From assembly GCA_028689055.1 (NCBI GenBank), contig JAQTWZ010000011.1, positions 1 to 42,577 on the forward strand: DNA of 42,577 nucleotides, written 5' to 3'. The stretch comes from Sulfurimonas sp. (GTDB lineage: Bacteria; Campylobacterota; Campylobacteria; Campylobacterales; Sulfurimonadaceae). A model generated the notes under the pieces. It did not search any database. It worked only from the letters and a program-made list of their open reading frames with translations, and had not been told where the DNA came from. The translations under genes and the position numbers were made by a program. Within the stretch, counting starts at the first letter, position 1. Each line of letters starts with the position of its first letter. Positions 20,441 to 35,309 of this stretch are shown in pieces.

Positions 20441-23400
20441 TCACCAATCATCGAGTAAAATTTTGCCGCTTTTTACTTGTTCGGACTCTTCTTTTTCCTC
20501 TATCACATTGATTTGCAACGCTTCTTCTTTGAGATTTTTACTCTTTTGCATCTGCTCTTCAAACTGCAATTCCAAACCTTTTGAAGTCATCACAAAACCT
20601 TCTACTTTTATCTTTCCATCATGTATTAGATTATGGTGTTCCTTACAAAGTGGCACGAGATTGTGTCTGTGGTTTTGATGAAAATGCCCTATAAAACCTG
20701 CAGCATCTGCCAAAGAGCGCTGTGAGATATGATGCACATCTTCGGCTACTGCGCCACAGATGATACACTTCGTCACATACAGGTCTTTGTTGTATTTGCT
20801 TTTTTTCTTCTTGACAAGAAGTTCAAGTTCGTCGTAGTCATTTGCAAGGCGTTTGCGTATTGCGTTGGCAGTTTCCAAAAAGTCACTGTCCATATGCAGC
20901 GACTTCGCAAACTCAAGTCCGTAGATACTGCTTCCGCTTCCTGATTGCAGTACGCGGTTAAAAAGCAGTCTGTCTTTTTCTTCGTCATACTCTACGCTGA
21001 GATGCAAATCCACGACATTATCAAGCTTTTTAACTTCGCTCATGGTGGAGAGCTGATGCAAATGCGTCGCAAACAAAAAGAGTGAGCGGATACTTGCTAG
21101 TTTGATGATAGCAGATGCCACAATTGCCACGCCTGAGAGTGTTTCCATACCGTGGCTTATCTCATCACCAAGGACTAAAGAACGCACAGTCGCACGGTTG
21201 AAAATATTTTTGAGTTCAAGCATCTCCACCGCAAAAGTTGAAAGACCTTTTGCAAGGTTGTCCCGTGAGACTATACGGGTAAAAAGTGAGTCAAAAAGAG
21301 AAAATTTCATCACCGAAGCACTCACAAAAAAGCCCGATTGTGCCATAAGTGTCGCGATGCCTATACTCTTCATGAGCGAGGATTTGCCGCTTGAGTTGAT
21401 ACCGTAAAGCAAAACGCCATTGATGGCATGACCGTCATGCACACTCACATCAAGCATCACCGTTTTTGGATGTGGCAAATCCATATAGTCTCTGTTTCCC
21501 ATCACGATATCATTTGGCACATAGATACCTGAACGCTCTTGTATCTCTATAAGCGGATGACGCAGTGCCATGATCTGCATGAAGTTTTCATCTTTAGGCA
21601 CTTCCACTATCATGGGGCGTGAATGTTTATACATTTGCGCTACTTTAGAAGAGCTCACACCCACATCCAAATCCGCTACATAAGCGATAACTCTATCAAA
21701 AAGAAGTGCGTAACGACGCTCATAAACACTTTGGAGCTGGATAAAACGCTCTTTGACCAAAGAGACTATTTTACGGCGATTTTTCATGATCTGGTCTGAG
21801 AGTTTGTCTGTAAAATCTGAGCTTATTTTGACATTGTTTGTCAGTTTTTTGACACTAAATTTTGTAAACTCTTCATGTTTATAAAAGACACTCTCTATCT
21901 GCGAAAACCTGTTTTTACTCAGAGAAATATAATAGCCCTCTTTTTCCAAAAGTCCCAGACTCACCAAACGCGTACTTGCTGCGTTTGTACTTGCATCATC
22001 AAGGAGTTCTTGAATCTTGCTCATGATATCTTCATACGCGATAAACATCACTGCGTTTTCTTTGACAAGAGTATCGACCGCTTCATCCACACCGCTCATG
22101 AGAAAATTTTCATCGACCGTATTGTTGGTAAAACGACGAGAGACATCAAGGTCGATACTTTTGCCGATATCGCGTAAAAACTCTTCCACTTCACTCTCAT
22201 GAAAAGGGGTCTTTTGGATTTTATGTTTTTTGACATAGAGCATCAGCTCTTTGACGCTCTGCATAGAGTCATAAATATGGTTCATCTCAAAAGGATGTAA
22301 CCTGCCCAAATCAAGTCTGCGCGCGAGTCTCTCTATATCATAAACGCCACGCATCGTCTCATCCAAATGACGCACATGTGAGCCGACTCTCTCTATAAGA
22401 TTGTATCTGCGTTCTAGTTCTTCTTTTTCAAGTATCGGATTGAGCAAACGTTCTTTGAGGAGTCTGCGTCCGATAGCCGTGGCACTCTTATCCATCATCC
22501 TCAGCAGTGTAAACTCTCTGACATCTTTGGAGATAACACCCAACTGCTCAAGTGCGTTGTTGCCAAGATACATAAAACGGCGATTGTCGATGATATGTGG
22601 GCGGTCAAGTTTTTGTACGATATGGATATCGTGTTCTATGACAAAGTGCACCAATATCGCGAGAGCTTCGGTGATCATCGGTGAGCGTTCAAGGTCGAGA
22701 TGTTCTATCGGAGAGAGGAGGGATTGTATCTGATACACTTCACGAAAGAGCTCATTTTGAAACTCTATCTTCGGGCGTTCATTGTTGACGCTGTAGTGAT
22801 AATGTTCGGCGATTTCAAGGTAGCTCATGACATGACGCTGATCTTCTGCACCTTCTAAAAATGTCACAACCACTTCACTTGTCTTGTGGATATTTAAAAG
22901 ATTAAATATTTCATCAAGCGCATACGAAGGATCTTCACTTGTGCCATGCGTCTCATAGAGCCAAGTTTTGCCTGTTGTCACATCAATAGCCGCGTAGCCG
23001 ACATTGTAAATACCGCGATATTTATCCACTAAAAGAGAGACGATATAGTTATCATCATTGTCGATGATATAGTCGAAATTTGTTCCCGGAGAGACTATCT
23101 GTGAGATGTAGCGACTTATATTTGGCGGGTTGCCTTTTTGTTTGACGACGATGACTGTATATTTTTGCTCTTGTATCAAACGACCGAGATAACGCTCAAA
23201 AGATACCGCAGGCACACCTGCAAGCAGAGGATTTCTGTCAGAATTTTCTTCGATATTTTTATTTTTCTTTGTCAGTTGGATGTTGAGAAGTTCCGCTATC
23301 TCTTTGGCTTTTCCTATCTGCTCATCATCGTTATTGACCTCATAGACCTCATAAAAAGTCCCGATTTCCATAAAAACTACGGTATCTCTGCCGTATTTTT

Positions 23401-23488
23401 CTTCAAAAAATCTCTGCAGGTCAAAATATATTTGTGTTAATAATTTGTCTTTATCGTTTAATAAAAAACTTACATCTGATGAACGCAT
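20441..23488 (-). CDS. MutS7-type mismatch-binding ATPase fused to an HNH nuclease
   Basis: The 1015-residue protein has a MutS mismatch-recognition domain with the F45-Y-E47 motif ([10 protein letters not shown]), the connector, core and clamp domains, then the ATPase: Walker [10 protein letters not shown] (696-704), Walker B LVLGDE (D775, E776) and the THLHQ histidine at 809. After about 890 comes an HNH domain with C908-x2-C911, DVHHIS (H919, H920), HRHNLVPL and C948-x2-H951. MutS with a C-terminal HNH is the MutS7 subfamily described from Campylobacterota, octocoral mitochondria and giant viruses. It could recognise a mismatch and nick without MutL. Confidence 0.92.
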
Positions 23489-23797: not shown

Positions 23798-26617
23798 ATG
23801 TCACTTACAAGAAGAGATTTTCTCAAAAGTTCAGCAGCGGCATCTGCAGCAGCAGCGATGGGTATGAGTGTACCTAGCGATGTTCAAGCAGCGGCACAAA
23901 GTGCTGAGACGAACTGGAGATGGGATAAAGCGGCGTGTCGTTTTTGCGGTACTGGCTGTGGAATTATGATGGCTACAAAAGACGGTAAAATCGTAGCAGT
24001 AAAAGGCGACCCTGCAGCGCCTGTAAATAGAGGTCTAAACTGTATCAAAGGGTACTTTAACGCAAAAATTATGTACGGTGCGGATAGATTGACGCAACCA
24101 CTTCTGAGAGTCGATGCAAAAGGGAACTTTGACAAAAACGGGAAATTTGCTCCTGTATCTTGGAAAAGAGCTTTTGATGAGATGGAACTTAACATCAAAA
24201 AAGCACTCAAATCAGGTGGACCTGAAGCTGTTGGTGTATTTGCATCAGGACAATATACGGTAATGGAAGGTTATGCCGCACAAAAGATGATGAAAGGCGG
24301 TTTCCGTTCAAACGCATTTGATCCAAACGCGCGTCACTGTATGGCTTCTGCTGTTGTTGGTTTTTACCAAACATTTGGTATTGATGAGCCGTCAGGTTGT
24401 TATGATGATATCGAACTTACAGACACTATCGTCTCTTGGGGTTCAAATATGGCAGAGATGCACCCTATTCTCTGGTCTCGTGTCACAGATAGAAAACTCT
24501 CAGATCCAGAACGCGTAAAAGTTATCAATATGTCAACATACAGACATAGAACTTCGGATTTGGCTGATATCGAAATCATTTTCTCACCAAATACAGACCT
24601 TGCACTTTGGAACTATATCGCTCATGAAATCGTTTACAACCATCCAGAATCTATCGACTGGGATTTCGTAAAAAGACATATCGTCTTCGCAGCATCTCCT
24701 GTAAATATGGGTTATGGCATGAGAAGAAGCGATGAAAAATCTGTCAAAGAAGGCAAATATACAGCGCTTGAGATGGAAACAATCTCTAAAGAGATGTCAA
24801 AAGTCGTCTCCGCAAAAGAAGCACCTGCTCTTAAACCGTATGGTTATAAAGAAGGTGATGTTATGACCAACGAAAACGCAGGTCTCAAACACTGGGAAAT
24901 CTCTTTTGATGAATACAAAAAATTCTTAGAGCCATATACACTTGACTATGTAGCAGAGATCTCAAAAGGTAATCCGGATGAAGATATCAACGAGTTCAAG
25001 AAAAAACTTCAGACACTTGCAGATCTCTATATAGAAAAAGATCGAAAAGTTGTAAGTTTCTGGACAATGGGTATGAATCAGCATACGCGTGGAACATGGG
25101 TAAATACACTCTCTTACAATGTTCACTTCTTACTCAATAAACAAGCGAAACCGGGTTCTGGAGCTTTCTCGCTTACAGGACAGCCTTCTGCTTGTGGAAC
25201 AGCTCGTGAAGTTGGAACATTCTGCCACCGTTTACCTGCAGATATGATGGTTGCAAATCCAAAACACAGAAAAATCGTTGAAAATAAATGGATGGTTCCA
25301 GAGGGAACTATCAATCCTATCGGTGTACAGCACATCATGAAAATCCATAGAGATATCGAAGATGGTCTTATCAAATTTGCATGGGTCAATGTATGTAATC
25401 CATATCAAGACACAGCAAGTGCATCACACTGGATTAAAGCGGCAAGAGAGATGGACAACTTTATCGTCACTTCTGATGGTTACCCGGGAATCAGCGCAAA
25501 AGTTTCAGACCTCATCCTTCCTTCAGCGATGATTTATGAGAAATGGGGCGCTTACGGAAACGCAGAACGCCGTACACAACACTGGAGACAACAAGTCCTT
25601 CCTGTAGGTGACGCGATGAGTGATACATGGCAGTGGATTGAGCTTTCAAAAAGATTTACAGTCAAAGATGTGTGGGGCGGTTATGCTCCAAGCGGTCCTA
25701 GAAAAGAGCCACTGCCTGATCTTATCGAAGCGGCAAAAGCACTTGGATATACAGAAAACACAACGATGTACGAGATTCTTTATGCAAATAAAGTAGCAAA
25801 ATCTTACAAACTTGACCAAAAAGATCCTGTACAAAAAGGGTATGACAATACTGAAGGTTTTGGAGATAAAAGAAAAGTAGTAGGAAGTGACGGCAAAGTC
25901 TTTGAAGGCTACGGTTTCTTTGTTCAAAAATATCTTTTTGAAGAGTATGCTGCGTTTGGACGCGGACATGGACATGACCTTGCTCCGTTTGACGTTTACC
26001 ACAAAGTTCGTGGACTTAAATGGCCGGTTGTTGACGGCAAAGAGACACAATGGAGATTTAACGTACAGTACGATCCATACGCTGCAAAAGCAGTAAAAGA
26101 AGCTGGAACGGACAACTCTCACGCGTTTTATGGCACACTTGCAAAAGAGTTGGCTTATGGAGACTTGATGGGTATCCAGAAAAAAGAACCGACGGGACTC
26201 AAAAACAAAGCCAAAATATTTGCGCGTCCGTACATGGATCCACCAGAAATGCCAGATACAGCTTATCCGGTATGGCTAAGTACAGGTCGTGTGCTTGAGC
26301 ACTGGCATTCTGGAACAATGACTATGCGTGTACCTGAACTTTATCGCGCTGTGCCTGAAGCACTCTGTTATATGCACCCAGAAGATGCAAAAACTTATGA
26401 TGTCAAACAGGGTGAACTCTGCTGGGTAGAATCTCGCCGTGGCAAAGTAAAAGCAAGAGTTGAGACAAGAGGAAGAAACAGACCATCACGCGGTCTTGTA
26501 TTTGTGCCTTGGTTTGATGAAAAAGTATTTATCAACAAAGTTTGTTTGGATGCTACTTGTCCTCAATCAGGTCAAACAGACTACAAAAAATGTGCTGTAA
26601 AAATTTATAAAGCGTAA
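23798..26617 (+). CDS. napA: Periplasmic nitrate reductase catalytic subunit
   Basis: Reduces nitrate to nitrite in the periplasm with Mo-bisMGD and one [4Fe-4S] cluster. The 939-residue protein has a Tat signal ([19 protein letters not shown]), cluster cysteines C47, C50, C54 and C82, and the Mo ligand C181 in [12 protein letters not shown]. Long insertions and the total length match NapA from Campylobacterota rather than the shorter enterobacterial form. It is first in a napAGHBFLD operon and starts after AAGGAG. The upstream palindrome suggests control by the Crp/Fnr protein encoded at 33471. Confidence 0.98.
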
Positions 26618-31521: not shown

Positions 31522-31535
31522 TTGATATTTATCAA
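31522..31535 (+). promoter_or_regulatory. Crp/Fnr-type operator before the DUF2249 operon
   Basis: TTGAT-ATTT-ATCAA is an exact Fnr-class palindrome. TATAAA at 31556-31561 puts its centre near -40, an activating position for the gene at 31592. Confidence 0.8.
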
Positions 31536-31591: not shown

Positions 31592-31921
31592 ATGAGTACG
31601 ATACAAATAGAGATACAAGGTTCTACGGTTCCTTTTTTTAAAGAAGTGATTGATACGATTACGTATTATACTTTTGATACGAGTGCTACACCGCCGCCTG
31701 AACCGATGATAAATGCGATGCTTGGGCTACAACTGCTTGATGCAAACAGCAAACTTATCATGATAAACCACAAAGCACCCGGCGGACTTTTTCCAAAAAT
31801 CGAAACAGAATTTGATTATGAGGTTACTGACCTCGATGATGGGCGTGTTCAAGTTATCTTTAGCAAAAAACAAAACGCAGCTTCTACGACCGACTTTAGC
31901 CAAAACAGCTGCAAGGGCTAA
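31592..31921 (+). CDS. DUF2249 domain protein
   Basis: The 109-residue protein has the DUF2249 pattern: TPPPEPMINAMLGLQLLDANSKLIMINHKAPGG split over a helix and strand, followed by LFPKI. The family has a SirA-like fold and often sits near hemerythrins and genes for nitric oxide or nitrite metabolism. The tail contains one cysteine (QNSCKG). It starts after AAGG and 6 bp before the membrane protein gene. It is first in an operon with its own Fnr-type site. Confidence 0.78.
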   Translation: MSTIQIEIQGSTVPFFKEVIDTITYYTFDTSATPPPEPMINAMLGLQLLDANSKLIMINHKAPGGLFPKIETEFDYEVTDLDDGRVQVIFSKKQNAASTTDFSQNSCKG

Positions 31922-31926
31922 AGAGA

Positions 31927-33159
31927 ATGAATATCTCCCAGCAGTTTGCTCCGCCTTTTAGACTCATAGCACCTTTTATCGTGAGCGGCGTTGTGATCTA
32001 TTTTTTTGCACTGCTCTTTCTTTTTGGCTTTGACATAGAGACGATAAACTCACAAAACAGTGAGATGCTCTCTTTTGTACATCTTTTTTTATTGGGTTTT
32101 GTGATGATGTCTATCTTTGGAGCTATGGCACAACTCGTGCCTGTTGTTTTGGAAGTTGAGCATTTTGCAGTTGAACTTTACTATGCTATTTTTCCCCTGC
32201 TTTTTGTCGGAACGATGTTAATGGTTTTGGGTTTTTACAGTACGCCTGTTCTTTTATCTTTTGGCGGTGTTATTGTTTTTATCTCTTTTTTGATATTTTT
32301 AGGGGAGACCTTTGCGACTATCGCCAAAGCAAAACGGCTCAACTTCTCTTTTTATAGCGTTCTCTTCGCAAATATTTTTTTACTTTTAGGTGTTATCGTC
32401 GGCTTGCTCATGGCATTTACCTACAGCGGTTTTTTAGATGCAGATGTGAGTAAACTCCTTCATATCCATATCTATCTTGTTTTGTACGGATATGTCGGAT
32501 TTACAATCATCGGCATGAGCTATATTTTAGTGCCGATGTTTTGGCTCTCACACTCTTTTGACAAAAAATATCTCAAATATGCACTCTATTTTCTCGGTAG
32601 CGCTATTACGTTTGTCTGTGCGGGAGAATATTTTTCTACTCTCTTAAGCGATATTGCTTCTGCGTTTTTGTTTATTGCGTTTTCGCTTTATACTTATGAA
32701 CTCTATCTCATCTACAAAACGCGTGCCAGAGTCAAAAAAGATATCTACTATTATTTTATGATATTTTTTACCCTCTCTTTGGTTTTGAGTTTGATTTTGG
32801 GGGCATATTATCTCATGAGCCATCACGACACCTCTATCCTTCTTTTGGGTTTTGTGCTATTTTATGGGGTTCTCAGCTCTTTAATCATCGGACATTTTTA
32901 CAAAATCATCCCTTTTCTTATCTGGTTTGAGAAATTTTCGCCTCTTGTCGGCAAACAAAAAGTCCCGATGCTAGGCGATATGGTGCCGCTAAGAAGTTCT
33001 GCTCTACTCTTTGTATTTCACACACTTGGCTTTTCTATCGTTTTTTTCTCACTTGCGTTTGAAGCGGGAGAACTTTACAAAGCGGGAGCACTCTTTATGC
33101 TTGCCGCTGCGTTTTTACTCATCAAAGACACACTCTTTATGATGCAATTTAAAGGATAA
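31927..33159 (+). CDS. Histidine-rich 12-TM membrane protein, heme-copper/NnrS-like
   Basis: The 410-residue protein has about 12 membrane helices and histidines near helix starts: H52 in SFVHLFLLGF, H179 and H181 in LLHIHIYLVLYGY, H299/H300 in MSHHDTS, H323 in IIGHFYKIIPF and H365 in FVFHTLGF. The phrases GAMAQLVPV and GMSYILVPM look like an internal duplication. This layout recalls heme-copper oxidase subunit I, NorB and NnrS, but I cannot place it in one of them. Position between DUF2249 and MIP18 genes, an Fnr-type site and neighbouring cytochromes suggest a role in N-oxide metabolism. Confidence 0.7.
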   Translation: MNISQQFAPPFRLIAPFIVSGVVIYFFALLFLFGFDIETINSQNSEMLSFVHLFLLGFVMMSIFGAMAQLVPVVLEVEHFAVELYYAIFPLLFVGTMLMVLGFYSTPVLLSFGGVIVFISFLIFLGETFATIAKAKRLNFSFYSVLFANIFLLLGVIVGLLMAFTYSGFLDADVSKLLHIHIYLVLYGYVGFTIIGMSYILVPMFWLSHSFDKKYLKYALYFLGSAITFVCAGEYFSTLLSDIASAFLFIAFSLYTYELYLIYKTRARVKKDIYYYFMIFFTLSLVLSLILGAYYLMSHHDTSILLLGFVLFYGVLSSLIIGHFYKIIPFLIWFEKFSPLVGKQKVPMLGDMVPLRSSALLFVFHTLGFSIVFFSLAFEAGELYKAGALFMLAAAFLLIKDTLFMMQFKG

Positions 33160-33162
33160 ACA

Positions 33163-33474
33163 ATGTACACAAAAGAAGAAATATTCAAAGCAGTTTCAAC
33201 TGTAAACGATCCGGAAGTCGGGTTCAATCTTGTAGAGATGGGACTTATTTATGATGCAAGTTGTGATGAGCATGGCGATGTAAAAGTGACTATGACACTC
33301 AGTACAAAAGCCTGTCCCCTGCATCAGATGATAGTACAATGGGTAGAAGAGGCAGTGCTACGAGAACTGCCAGAAGCACAAAACGCAGCGGTGGAAGTTG
33401 TCTGGGAACCTGAGTGGAACATCACCATGGCAGATGAAGAGGTCAAACAAAAACTCGGTAGCGGTAACTATTAG
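33163..33474 (+). CDS. MIP18/DUF59 family iron-sulfur assembly protein
   Basis: The 103-residue protein has the family N-terminus (VNDPEVGFNLVEMGLIYD) and the reactive cysteine C51 in STKACPLHQMI. Relatives include SufT and PaaD, which help insert iron-sulfur clusters. It lies 3 bp after the membrane protein gene and shares its operon, so it may mature a metal site in that system. Its stop overlaps the convergent regulator stop by 4 bp. Confidence 0.88.
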   Translation: MYTKEEIFKAVSTVNDPEVGFNLVEMGLIYDASCDEHGDVKVTMTLSTKACPLHQMIVQWVEEAVLRELPEAQNAAVEVVWEPEWNITMADEEVKQKLGSGNY

Positions 33475-34539: not shown

Positions 34540-34968
34540 ATGCAAGCAAACGCAATAAAAACAGAAAGATATTTTGACAATATAGAGATTTCTCAACATC
34601 TCTTAAATGTAGAATATATCATAATGGTAGCGCCCGCACCTGAAAAATTTAAACAAACGCCCATCCATTTTACACTTTTTTTAAATACTTCCGAGCACTT
34701 GCCTCATGAAGTTCAAGAAGCTGTTTTGGGTAAATTTTTATATGAAAATAAAATAGGCAATCCAGCAGAACTCATGAGCCAGCTTATGCCAGTAGGTTTT
34801 GGTATGAGCACGCAAGAAACGGCGATGCCTATGCTTTTGGTAAAACCGGAAGATCGCGCAACGATCCCTCATGTCCCGATGTTTGTGATGGATTTTTTAG
34901 CAGATTCGGATAATTTTGATGAGGCAAAAATCAAAAACCTTACAGGTTGGAGCTACAGCTACAACTAA
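34540..34968 (+). CDS. Unknown protein in the N-oxide region
   Basis: The 142-residue soluble protein has no signal or cysteines. It has several short motifs rich in Met and Pro (QLMPVGFGMSTQETAMPMLLV) and ends GWSYSYN. I do not recognise a family. I start at 34540, where AAAGGA lies 6 nt upstream. The ATG at 34534 is too close to that site. It is divergent from the cytochrome/regulator operon across a Fnr-type site and converges with the YgbA_NO gene with a 4-bp overlap. Confidence 0.72.
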   Translation: MQANAIKTERYFDNIEISQHLLNVEYIIMVAPAPEKFKQTPIHFTLFLNTSEHLPHEVQEAVLGKFLYENKIGNPAELMSQLMPVGFGMSTQETAMPMLLVKPEDRATIPHVPMFVMDFLADSDNFDEAKIKNLTGWSYSYN

Positions 34969-35309
34969 GTGTTTAGGCTGAAAAAATCTCTGATTTCAAG
35001 TAATTTTGTTTTCGTCCCGCTGTATCGCATGACAGCGGCGACCTGTTTCCACTGCGTTTTATTGTAGCAGGGTTTGGCGCAGGTTCTGCATTTTGGTTTT
35101 TCATCATAAGGGCAAGCTTTGAGCCTCTCAAAAGAGTAAGCGAGTAACTCTGCACACTCCGCGCAAAGAGGAAGTTCAAAACTATATTTTTTGTCTTGAT
35201 AGAAAATATCAAAATGTCTTACATCTGTTGGACGGTGTTTATCTCCGCAGTACAGAGGAAAAAACTTCTTTAAAGTCGCCAACTCTTTTTCAAATTTCTC
35301 ACAAGTCAT
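34965..35309 (-). CDS. YgbA_NO family (nitrous oxide-stimulated promoter) protein
   Basis: The 114-residue cytoplasmic protein has the family cysteines: C21 in PLYCGDKH, C49-x2-C52 in LCAEC, C66, C74-x2-C77 and C81 in CRTCAKPCYN. The E. coli member YgbA is induced by nitric oxide and helps growth after nitrosative stress. Its chemistry is not established. It is the third gene of the cytochrome-hemerythrin operon, 16 bp after the hemerythrin gene. Confidence 0.85.
   Translation of the reverse strand: MTCEKFEKELATLKKFFPLYCGDKHRPTDVRHFDIFYQDKKYSFELPLCAECAELLAYSFERLKACPYDEKPKCRTCAKPCYNKTQWKQVAAVMRYSGTKTKLLEIRDFFSLNT

Follow-up and report, generated by a model that had tools for sequence, protein, structure and literature searches.

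A DUF2249, 12-transmembrane, and MIP18-like operon of denitrifiers as a possible nitric oxide response module

Gene layout and promoter of the operon

We analyzed a stretch of 42,577 nucleotides from a Sulfurimonas sp. assembly (GCA_028689055.1, contig JAQTWZ010000011.1), referred to here as the window. Three open reading frames follow one another on its plus strand with intergenic gaps of 3 to 5 bp, and they encode a DUF2249 protein, a membrane protein with 12 helices in its structural model (12-TM protein), and an MIP18/SufT-like protein. The original prediction, which was made from the sequence, had proposed such an operon under the control of a perfect Fnr-type site, and both the operon and the site were borne out. 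The genes and features of the locus are as follows.

31522 to 31535, plus strand: Fnr/Crp-type palindrome TTGATATTTATCAA, 56 bp 5' of the DUF2249 start codon
31592 to 31921, plus strand: gene for the DUF2249 protein (109 amino acids), an open reading frame whose match to Pfam DUF2249 is below the cutoff
31927 to 33159, plus strand: gene for the 12-TM membrane protein (410 amino acids), with a model-based heme-copper oxidase (HCO) subunit I fold of the HCO-homology type
33163 to 33474, plus strand: gene for the MIP18/SufT-like protein (FeS_assembly_P, DUF59; 103 amino acids), with a match to PF01883
33471 to 34154, minus strand: Crp/Fnr-family regulator, convergent neighbor of the operon, with Pfam cNMP_binding and HTH_Crp_2 domains
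34965 to 35309, minus strand: neighboring YgbA_NO-family protein (PF11756, E = 6e-16)

The palindrome TTGATATTTATCAA is the sole perfect Fnr-type palindrome within the window, where 0.13 would be expected by chance. In relatives, a Fnr-type site with at most one mismatch was found in 57 of 82 regions upstream of DUF2249 genes, compared to 51 of 644 background upstream regions, and its position was conserved in register, mostly 49 to 60 bp 5' of the DUF2249 start. Judged by this conserved upstream palindrome, the operon is predicted to be under Crp/Fnr-type control. The convergent Crp/Fnr-family gene, which adjoins the operon in several relatives as well, is a candidate for its regulator. The true NnrS of this genome is encoded by a separate gene on another contig, and an identical perfect palindrome lies ∼56 bp 5' of the start of that gene (L031:2711-2724). 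The shared palindrome suggests that the NnrS gene and the operon may be coregulated.

On the 5' side of the operon, the window contains nap genes, among which are napD and, at positions 23798 to 26617, napA. On the 3' side, the opposite strand carries the Crp/Fnr regulator, two small c-type cytochromes, the YgbA_NO-family protein, and a bacteriohemerythrin; a YgbA_NO-like protein also adjoins the operon at two further loci (L002 and L006). Genes for nirS, norCB, and nosZ are found elsewhere in the same genome. The window also encodes a 1,015-amino-acid MutS-like protein (20441 to 23488, minus strand) with a C-terminal HNH-like motif, CIICG...HHI...LVPLCKEHH, which presumably resembles the MutS7 type, as judged by motif.

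Soluble proteins of the operon

The DUF2249 protein scored 25 bits against Pfam DUF2249 (PF10006; E = 1.7e-5), under the gathering score of 29.5, and it appears to be a divergent relative of that family. Its confident model (pLDDT 88) suggests a SirA/TusA-like fold to which a hairpin is added at the N terminus, and its matches to SirA (3hz7; TMt 0.64) and TusA (3lvj; TMt 0.65) were weak, with E values of 0.08 to 0.13. We considered TusA-type persulfide chemistry and judged it unlikely for this protein: the position of the TusA-type Cys, which is Cys in 44 of 85 members of the family, is occupied by Thr33, and the conserved Cys is instead the C-terminal Cys107, kept in 78 of 85.

The MIP18/SufT-like protein gave a clear match to PF01883 (61 bits against a cutoff of 23.5) and contains a Cys-Pro motif whose Cys51 is present in all 78 of the 78 sequences compared and is kept across distant phyla. 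Solved relatives are 1uwd and 2cu6. Against the curated SUF_assoc, SufT, and PaaD equivalogs, it scored under the cutoffs. A literature search for metal-sulfur cluster factors associated with denitrification found none.

Gene neighborhoods and co-occurrence with denitrification genes

A gene neighborhood survey found the order DUF2249-12TM-MIP18 in 100 of the 123 gene copies examined, a set that includes some duplicate genomes. Copies of the three-gene set were seen in Campylobacterota, rhizobia, Paracoccus, and Thermus, with neighbors that include nor, nirK, nnrS, nos, or nar genes, a context that spans phyla. In Ensifer and R. etli, the arrangement is nor genes-hemN-DUF2249-12TM-DUF2249-MIP18-NnrS-nirK; the operon has Crp/Fnr, pseudoazurin, and nor genes as neighbors in Paracoccus and NnrS and nosR-nosZ in Mesorhizobium. 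The nar plasmid of Thermus carries an island with the order nar-drpA-drpB-4TM-protoglobin-12TM-MIP18. Haloferax has 12-TM and DUF2249 genes near an NO reductase-like gene and a multicopper oxidase (nirK-like), with no MIP18 gene listed adjacent to them. Genes of the YgbA_NO, NnrS, or Hcp-like type are neighbors of some operon copies.

Across a sample of 76 relatives that were at least 90% complete, the presence of the module tracked nirS and not nap. The counts for module and nirS were 36/7/4/29 (p = 2.7e-10 in a test that, like all of those given here, ignores phylogeny), with 7 near-complete genomes having the module without nirS and 4 having nirS without the module. Associations with nosZ (p = 1.6e-6) and napA (p = 0.009) were both weaker, phylogeny again being ignored. 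When only napA-positive genomes were considered, the link to nirS stayed (p = 6e-8), whereas nirS-positive genomes alone showed no link between the module and nosZ (p = 1.0), both tests likewise ignoring phylogeny. Because NirS makes NO, the module would follow NO. A role in N-oxide metabolism, as originally proposed, agrees with this co-occurrence and with the nor, nir, nos, and nar neighbors.

The same associations bear on a reading in which the operon encodes an assembly factor that matures one denitrification enzyme by inserting heme, copper, or Fe-S into Nir, Nor, Nos, or Nap. Its strict pairing with an MIP18/SufT-like Fe-S factor, the strong nirS link, and the location of the operon directly after nap genes in the window would all fit such a role. 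However, the neighboring enzyme differs by lineage (nirK, nar, and nos clusters, with nap in the window), the nosZ link within nirS genomes is nil, and the napA link is weak. Furthermore, one genome (G002) has the module without nirS, cNor, or nosZ, and there the module adjoins NnrS and an Hcp-like gene. We consider maturation of a single enzyme unlikely.

The Thermus island brings in another reading, a sensor module in which the membrane heme protein would respond to NO, to nitrate, or to redox state, with the DUF2249 protein relaying the signal to Crp/Fnr regulators. DrpA and DrpB of Thermus are DUF2249 proteins that share the nar island with 12-TM and MIP18 genes. In PMC6282519, they are proposed as nitrate sensors, and deletion of both led to nitrate-independent nar and dnr expression; the published model there is thus one of nitrate sensing, which differs from the NO response that we favor. 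The same study reports that nitrate reductase activity in the drpAB double mutant was down to about one-tenth even though NarG was made, which fits maturation or protection better than sensing. Crp/Fnr genes adjoin many operon copies, but this adjacency is frequent rather than constant, and sensing needs no Fe-S factor in the operon. We regard a sensory role as quite unlikely.

Fold and conserved residues of the membrane protein

The 12-TM protein of the window had no match in Pfam, NCBIfam, or PDB sequence searches, and its closest named relatives, at 82% and 72% identity, come from Sulfurimonas MAGs. An AlphaFold2 model built with 58 homologs (pLDDT 88.8, pTM 0.89) consists of 12 long helices. 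Its best Foldseek match was CcoN (3mk7; E = 7.6e-6), with a VIA-align Z score of 33.3 over 383 residues, and NorB (4xyd) aligned with a Z score of 32.0. This one model supports an HCO subunit I fold for the 12-TM protein and upholds the likeness to heme-copper oxidases and NorB that had been noticed in the sequence. Identity to CcoN and NorB, both of the COX1 family (PF00115), is nevertheless under 15%. Pfam COX1 was weakly matched by 8 of 28 homologs (best E = 1.9e-4), with bit scores of 17 to 20 for two homologs against a cutoff of 34.8, and the window protein itself had no COX1 match.

Membership in NnrS was also considered and was rejected: Pfam NnrS (PF05940) gave no match at an E value of 1 in the window protein or in 27 homologs, the conserved histidines are different, and the genome has its separate true NnrS.

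The 12-TM protein is composed of three homologous four-helix units, which aligned with one another by hhalign at E values of 2e-4 to 5e-7. A duplicated G-x-x-x-L-V-P element had been described, and the repetition is real, but the spacing is G-x4-L-V-P (G65-P72 and G196-P203) and there is a third, looser copy (G322-P329); the copies mark the internal threefold repeat. Full-length hhalign comparisons of the close family (A2) with CcoN, NorB, and NnrS found nothing, and a signal to CcoN and NnrS appeared after distant members had been added and the protein had been split into its units.

In 2014, Pei et al. are reported to have described 12-TM HCO-homology (HCOH) families in which two His may bind a single heme. 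These families resemble the 12-TM protein of the window in having an oxidase fold built of three homologous units, a pair of conserved His, DUF2249 neighbors, and a denitrification context. The model and hhalign give the window protein an HCO fold of three homologous 4-TM units, and its two fully conserved histidines allow for one heme. We read it as an uncharacterized member of the wider HCO-homology/NnrS circle of 12-TM proteins, only distantly related to NnrS itself. An association of DUF2249 with the HCO superfamily is not wholly new (PMC11218638, citing Pei et al. 2014 as its reference 36).

Conservation was assessed in 81 sequences, which included paralogs and members from Thermus, rhizobia, Paracoccus, and Haloferax. 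The codons concerned are as follows.

32080 to 32082, plus strand: H52 (TM2), invariant in 81/81, predicted heme ligand
32161 to 32163, plus strand: H79, predicted cytoplasmic side, 64/81, Campylobacterota clade only
32467 to 32469, plus strand: H181 (TM6), invariant in 81/81, predicted second heme ligand
32551 to 32553, plus strand: H209, predicted cytoplasmic side, 65/81, mainly Campylobacterota clade
32893 to 32904, plus strand: H323 to K326 (TM10) in the motif H-x-Y-K-I-I-P-F, with H323 in 64/81 and K326 in 79/81

The paired histidines listed in the original prediction all exist, but they are of unequal standing. H52 and H181 are the only invariant His among the 81 homologs, and H323 is kept within the Campylobacterota clade, outside of which the position is Met, Gln, Asn, or Thr; in contrast, H179, H299, H300, and H365 are variable. 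That list had missed H79 and H209. Other invariant residues are Q69, M204, F205, R266, F330, and W333. We considered a three-His metal site formed by H79, H209, and H323 as the core of the family and rejected it as a universal feature, because these residues are replaced in Thermus (two of the three), rhizobia, and paralogs; it was kept as a trait of the clade.

These residues weigh heavily on the proposal that the protein is a new type of nitric oxide reductase or oxidase, which would reduce NO (or O2) at a heme-metal center. Its CcoN/NorB fold, its nor and nir neighborhood, the c-type cytochromes nearby as potential donors, and the clade-specific H79, H209, and H323 as a potential second metal site would be in keeping with such an enzyme. 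Heme-copper oxidases and NO reductases, however, carry a six-His set for two hemes and CuB or FeB (TM2, TM6, TM7 HH, and TM10 HxH). The TM7 HH, which binds CuB or FeB, and the two heme ligands of the TM10 HxH, all fully kept in our comparison sets of CcoN (23 sequences) and NorB (11 sequences), have no counterpart in any of the 12-TM homologs, where only two His are universal. Because the TM7 and TM10 ligands are absent, the known chemistry of oxidases and NO reductases does not apply to this protein, and the reductase-like function suggested at first is not supported. In addition, norCB, nirS, and nosZ are already in the genome, and no NorC-like or Cu subunit accompanies the 12-TM gene, making this proposal very improbable. 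The 12 TM helices and the lack of a characterized relative might also point to a transporter or channel, with nitrite, NO, or a metal as examples of what it could carry, but this identity is hardly credible and was rejected, as the oxidase subunit I fold extends along the whole chain (Z score of 33, 383 aligned), the two invariant His lie at heme-ligand registers, and Pfam, NCBIfam, and Foldseek yielded no confident match to a transporter family.

Predicted heme position

In classical oxidases, the low-spin heme is held by the first-type His of unit 1 and the second-type His of unit 3, which lie in TM2 and TM10. Alignment by hhalign of 12-TM unit 1 to CcoN unit 3 (E = 5.7e-6) placed H52 on the second His of the TM10 HxH, and that of unit 2 to CcoN unit 3 (E = 2.5e-5) placed H181 on the first, although each of these E values comes from one comparison against a template of low diversity, and all three units score strongly with CcoN unit 3. 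The CcoN TM2 His aligned, weakly, with the first His of TM10. H181 would then be a first-type His of unit 2 and H52 a second-type His of unit 1, so that the classical pair appears rotated by one unit. From this register, which also underlies the inferred geometry, we predict that units 1 and 2 hold a single bis-His heme between them, where the pore is empty in classical oxidases. In agreement with a one-unit shift, the COX1 match of one homolog ran from residues 140 to 326 along profile positions 3 to 203, laying unit 2 onto classical unit 1. Given how strongly CcoN unit 3 scores for every unit, the permutation itself is only suggested.

The likeness to NnrS seen in the original prediction turned out to be a distant relation at the level of units. 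NnrS is likewise a 12-TM HCO-like protein of NO regulons, and its unit 1 aligned with 12-TM unit 2 (E = 5e-7, again a single comparison), placing H181 on the NnrS TM2 His. The two differ in that the conserved His of NnrS are in TM2 and TM10, the classical pair, whereas those of the window family are in TM2 and TM6. Within the genus Sulfurimonas, H51 and H298 of NnrS are kept in 24 of 25 sequences, and one further His is also kept.

Proposed function

NnrS of Vibrio reportedly shields iron metabolism against NO and does not consume NO itself. Our analysis directly yielded the set of three genes, a predicted fold, the conserved residues and their register, the promoter site, the neighborhoods across phyla, and the co-occurrence, and these are consistent with a conserved NO-response module of denitrifiers, in which a one-heme HCO-fold protein would act with DUF2249 and MIP18 proteins to protect or repair iron and Fe-S centers from NO. 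We infer the chemistry, and we give this proposal an even chance of being right. Metal-nitrosyl repair had been raised from the start as a possible function; repair of metal-nitrosyl or iron-sulfur centers by the operon is possible and is our leading reading, for which the heme, the contact between partners, and the NO and Fe-S chemistry are all presumed.

According to this NO-response reading, Fnr-type control would cause the complex to be made during the reduction of nitrite to NO. The 12-TM protein would hold one b-type bis-His heme near the periplasmic side, with H52 (TM2) and H181 (TM6) as ligands, and by way of this heme the complex would either bind NO or transfer an electron. Toward the cytoplasm, a patch of Q69, M204-F205, R266, and K326-x2-PF-x2-W333, joined in the Campylobacterota clade by H79, H209, and H323, may serve as a docking or metal site for the two cytosolic partners, the DUF2249 and MIP18/SufT-like proteins. 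These partners might then shield nitrosylated iron or Fe-S centers, release them, or build them anew. The overall job would be that thought for NnrS, carried out by a related yet distinct route. A fuller version is tentative, and we would sooner expect parts of it to fail than the whole to hold: the 12-TM protein would be a rotated or circularly permuted oxidase with its sole heme between units 1 and 2 (TM2 and TM6 ligands), in a pore that classical oxidases and NO reductases leave empty, and its complex with the SirA/TusA-like and MIP18 proteins would sense NO on one side and repair or protect Fe-S on the other.

We take COG4309 to be DUF2249, and genes of this family have been listed next to NO reductase since 2005, without a known function. 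Rodionov 2005 (PMC1274295) assigned COG4309, together with nor, to NnrR/NsrR regulons and suggested that it is connected with NO reductase; more recently, four DUF2249 genes were induced in denitrifying Haloferax mediterranei (PMC11218638). DUF2249 is now tied to a three-gene module that occurs in Campylobacterota, Alphaproteobacteria, and Deinococcota and that Haloferax has in part, and its membrane partner has a predicted fold and two candidate heme ligands. If our reading is true, the oxidase fold can hold a heme in a third position, and denitrifiers would have a testable NO-protection system that bears on N2O emission and on rhizobia in nodules.

Other members of the family

Several related genes lie in other settings. 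A paralogous 12-TM subfamily with 21 to 24% identity (L179, L180, L183, L184, and L185) occurs with hemerythrin, DUF2249, DUF1858+DUF2249, or FmdE-like genes, and another paralog group with ∼33% identity (L173 to L175) lies beside thioredoxin genes. On the Thermus island, a 144-amino-acid protein encoded between drpB and protoglobin (L114:6563-6994) matches the last part of COX1 only (E = 4e-5) and appears to be a single-unit COX1/oxidase-like protein. On an Aliarcobacter butzleri plasmid (L207), a hypothetical gene, a 12-TM gene, and an MIP18 gene are found between transposon and IS21 genes, a setting that points to mobility.
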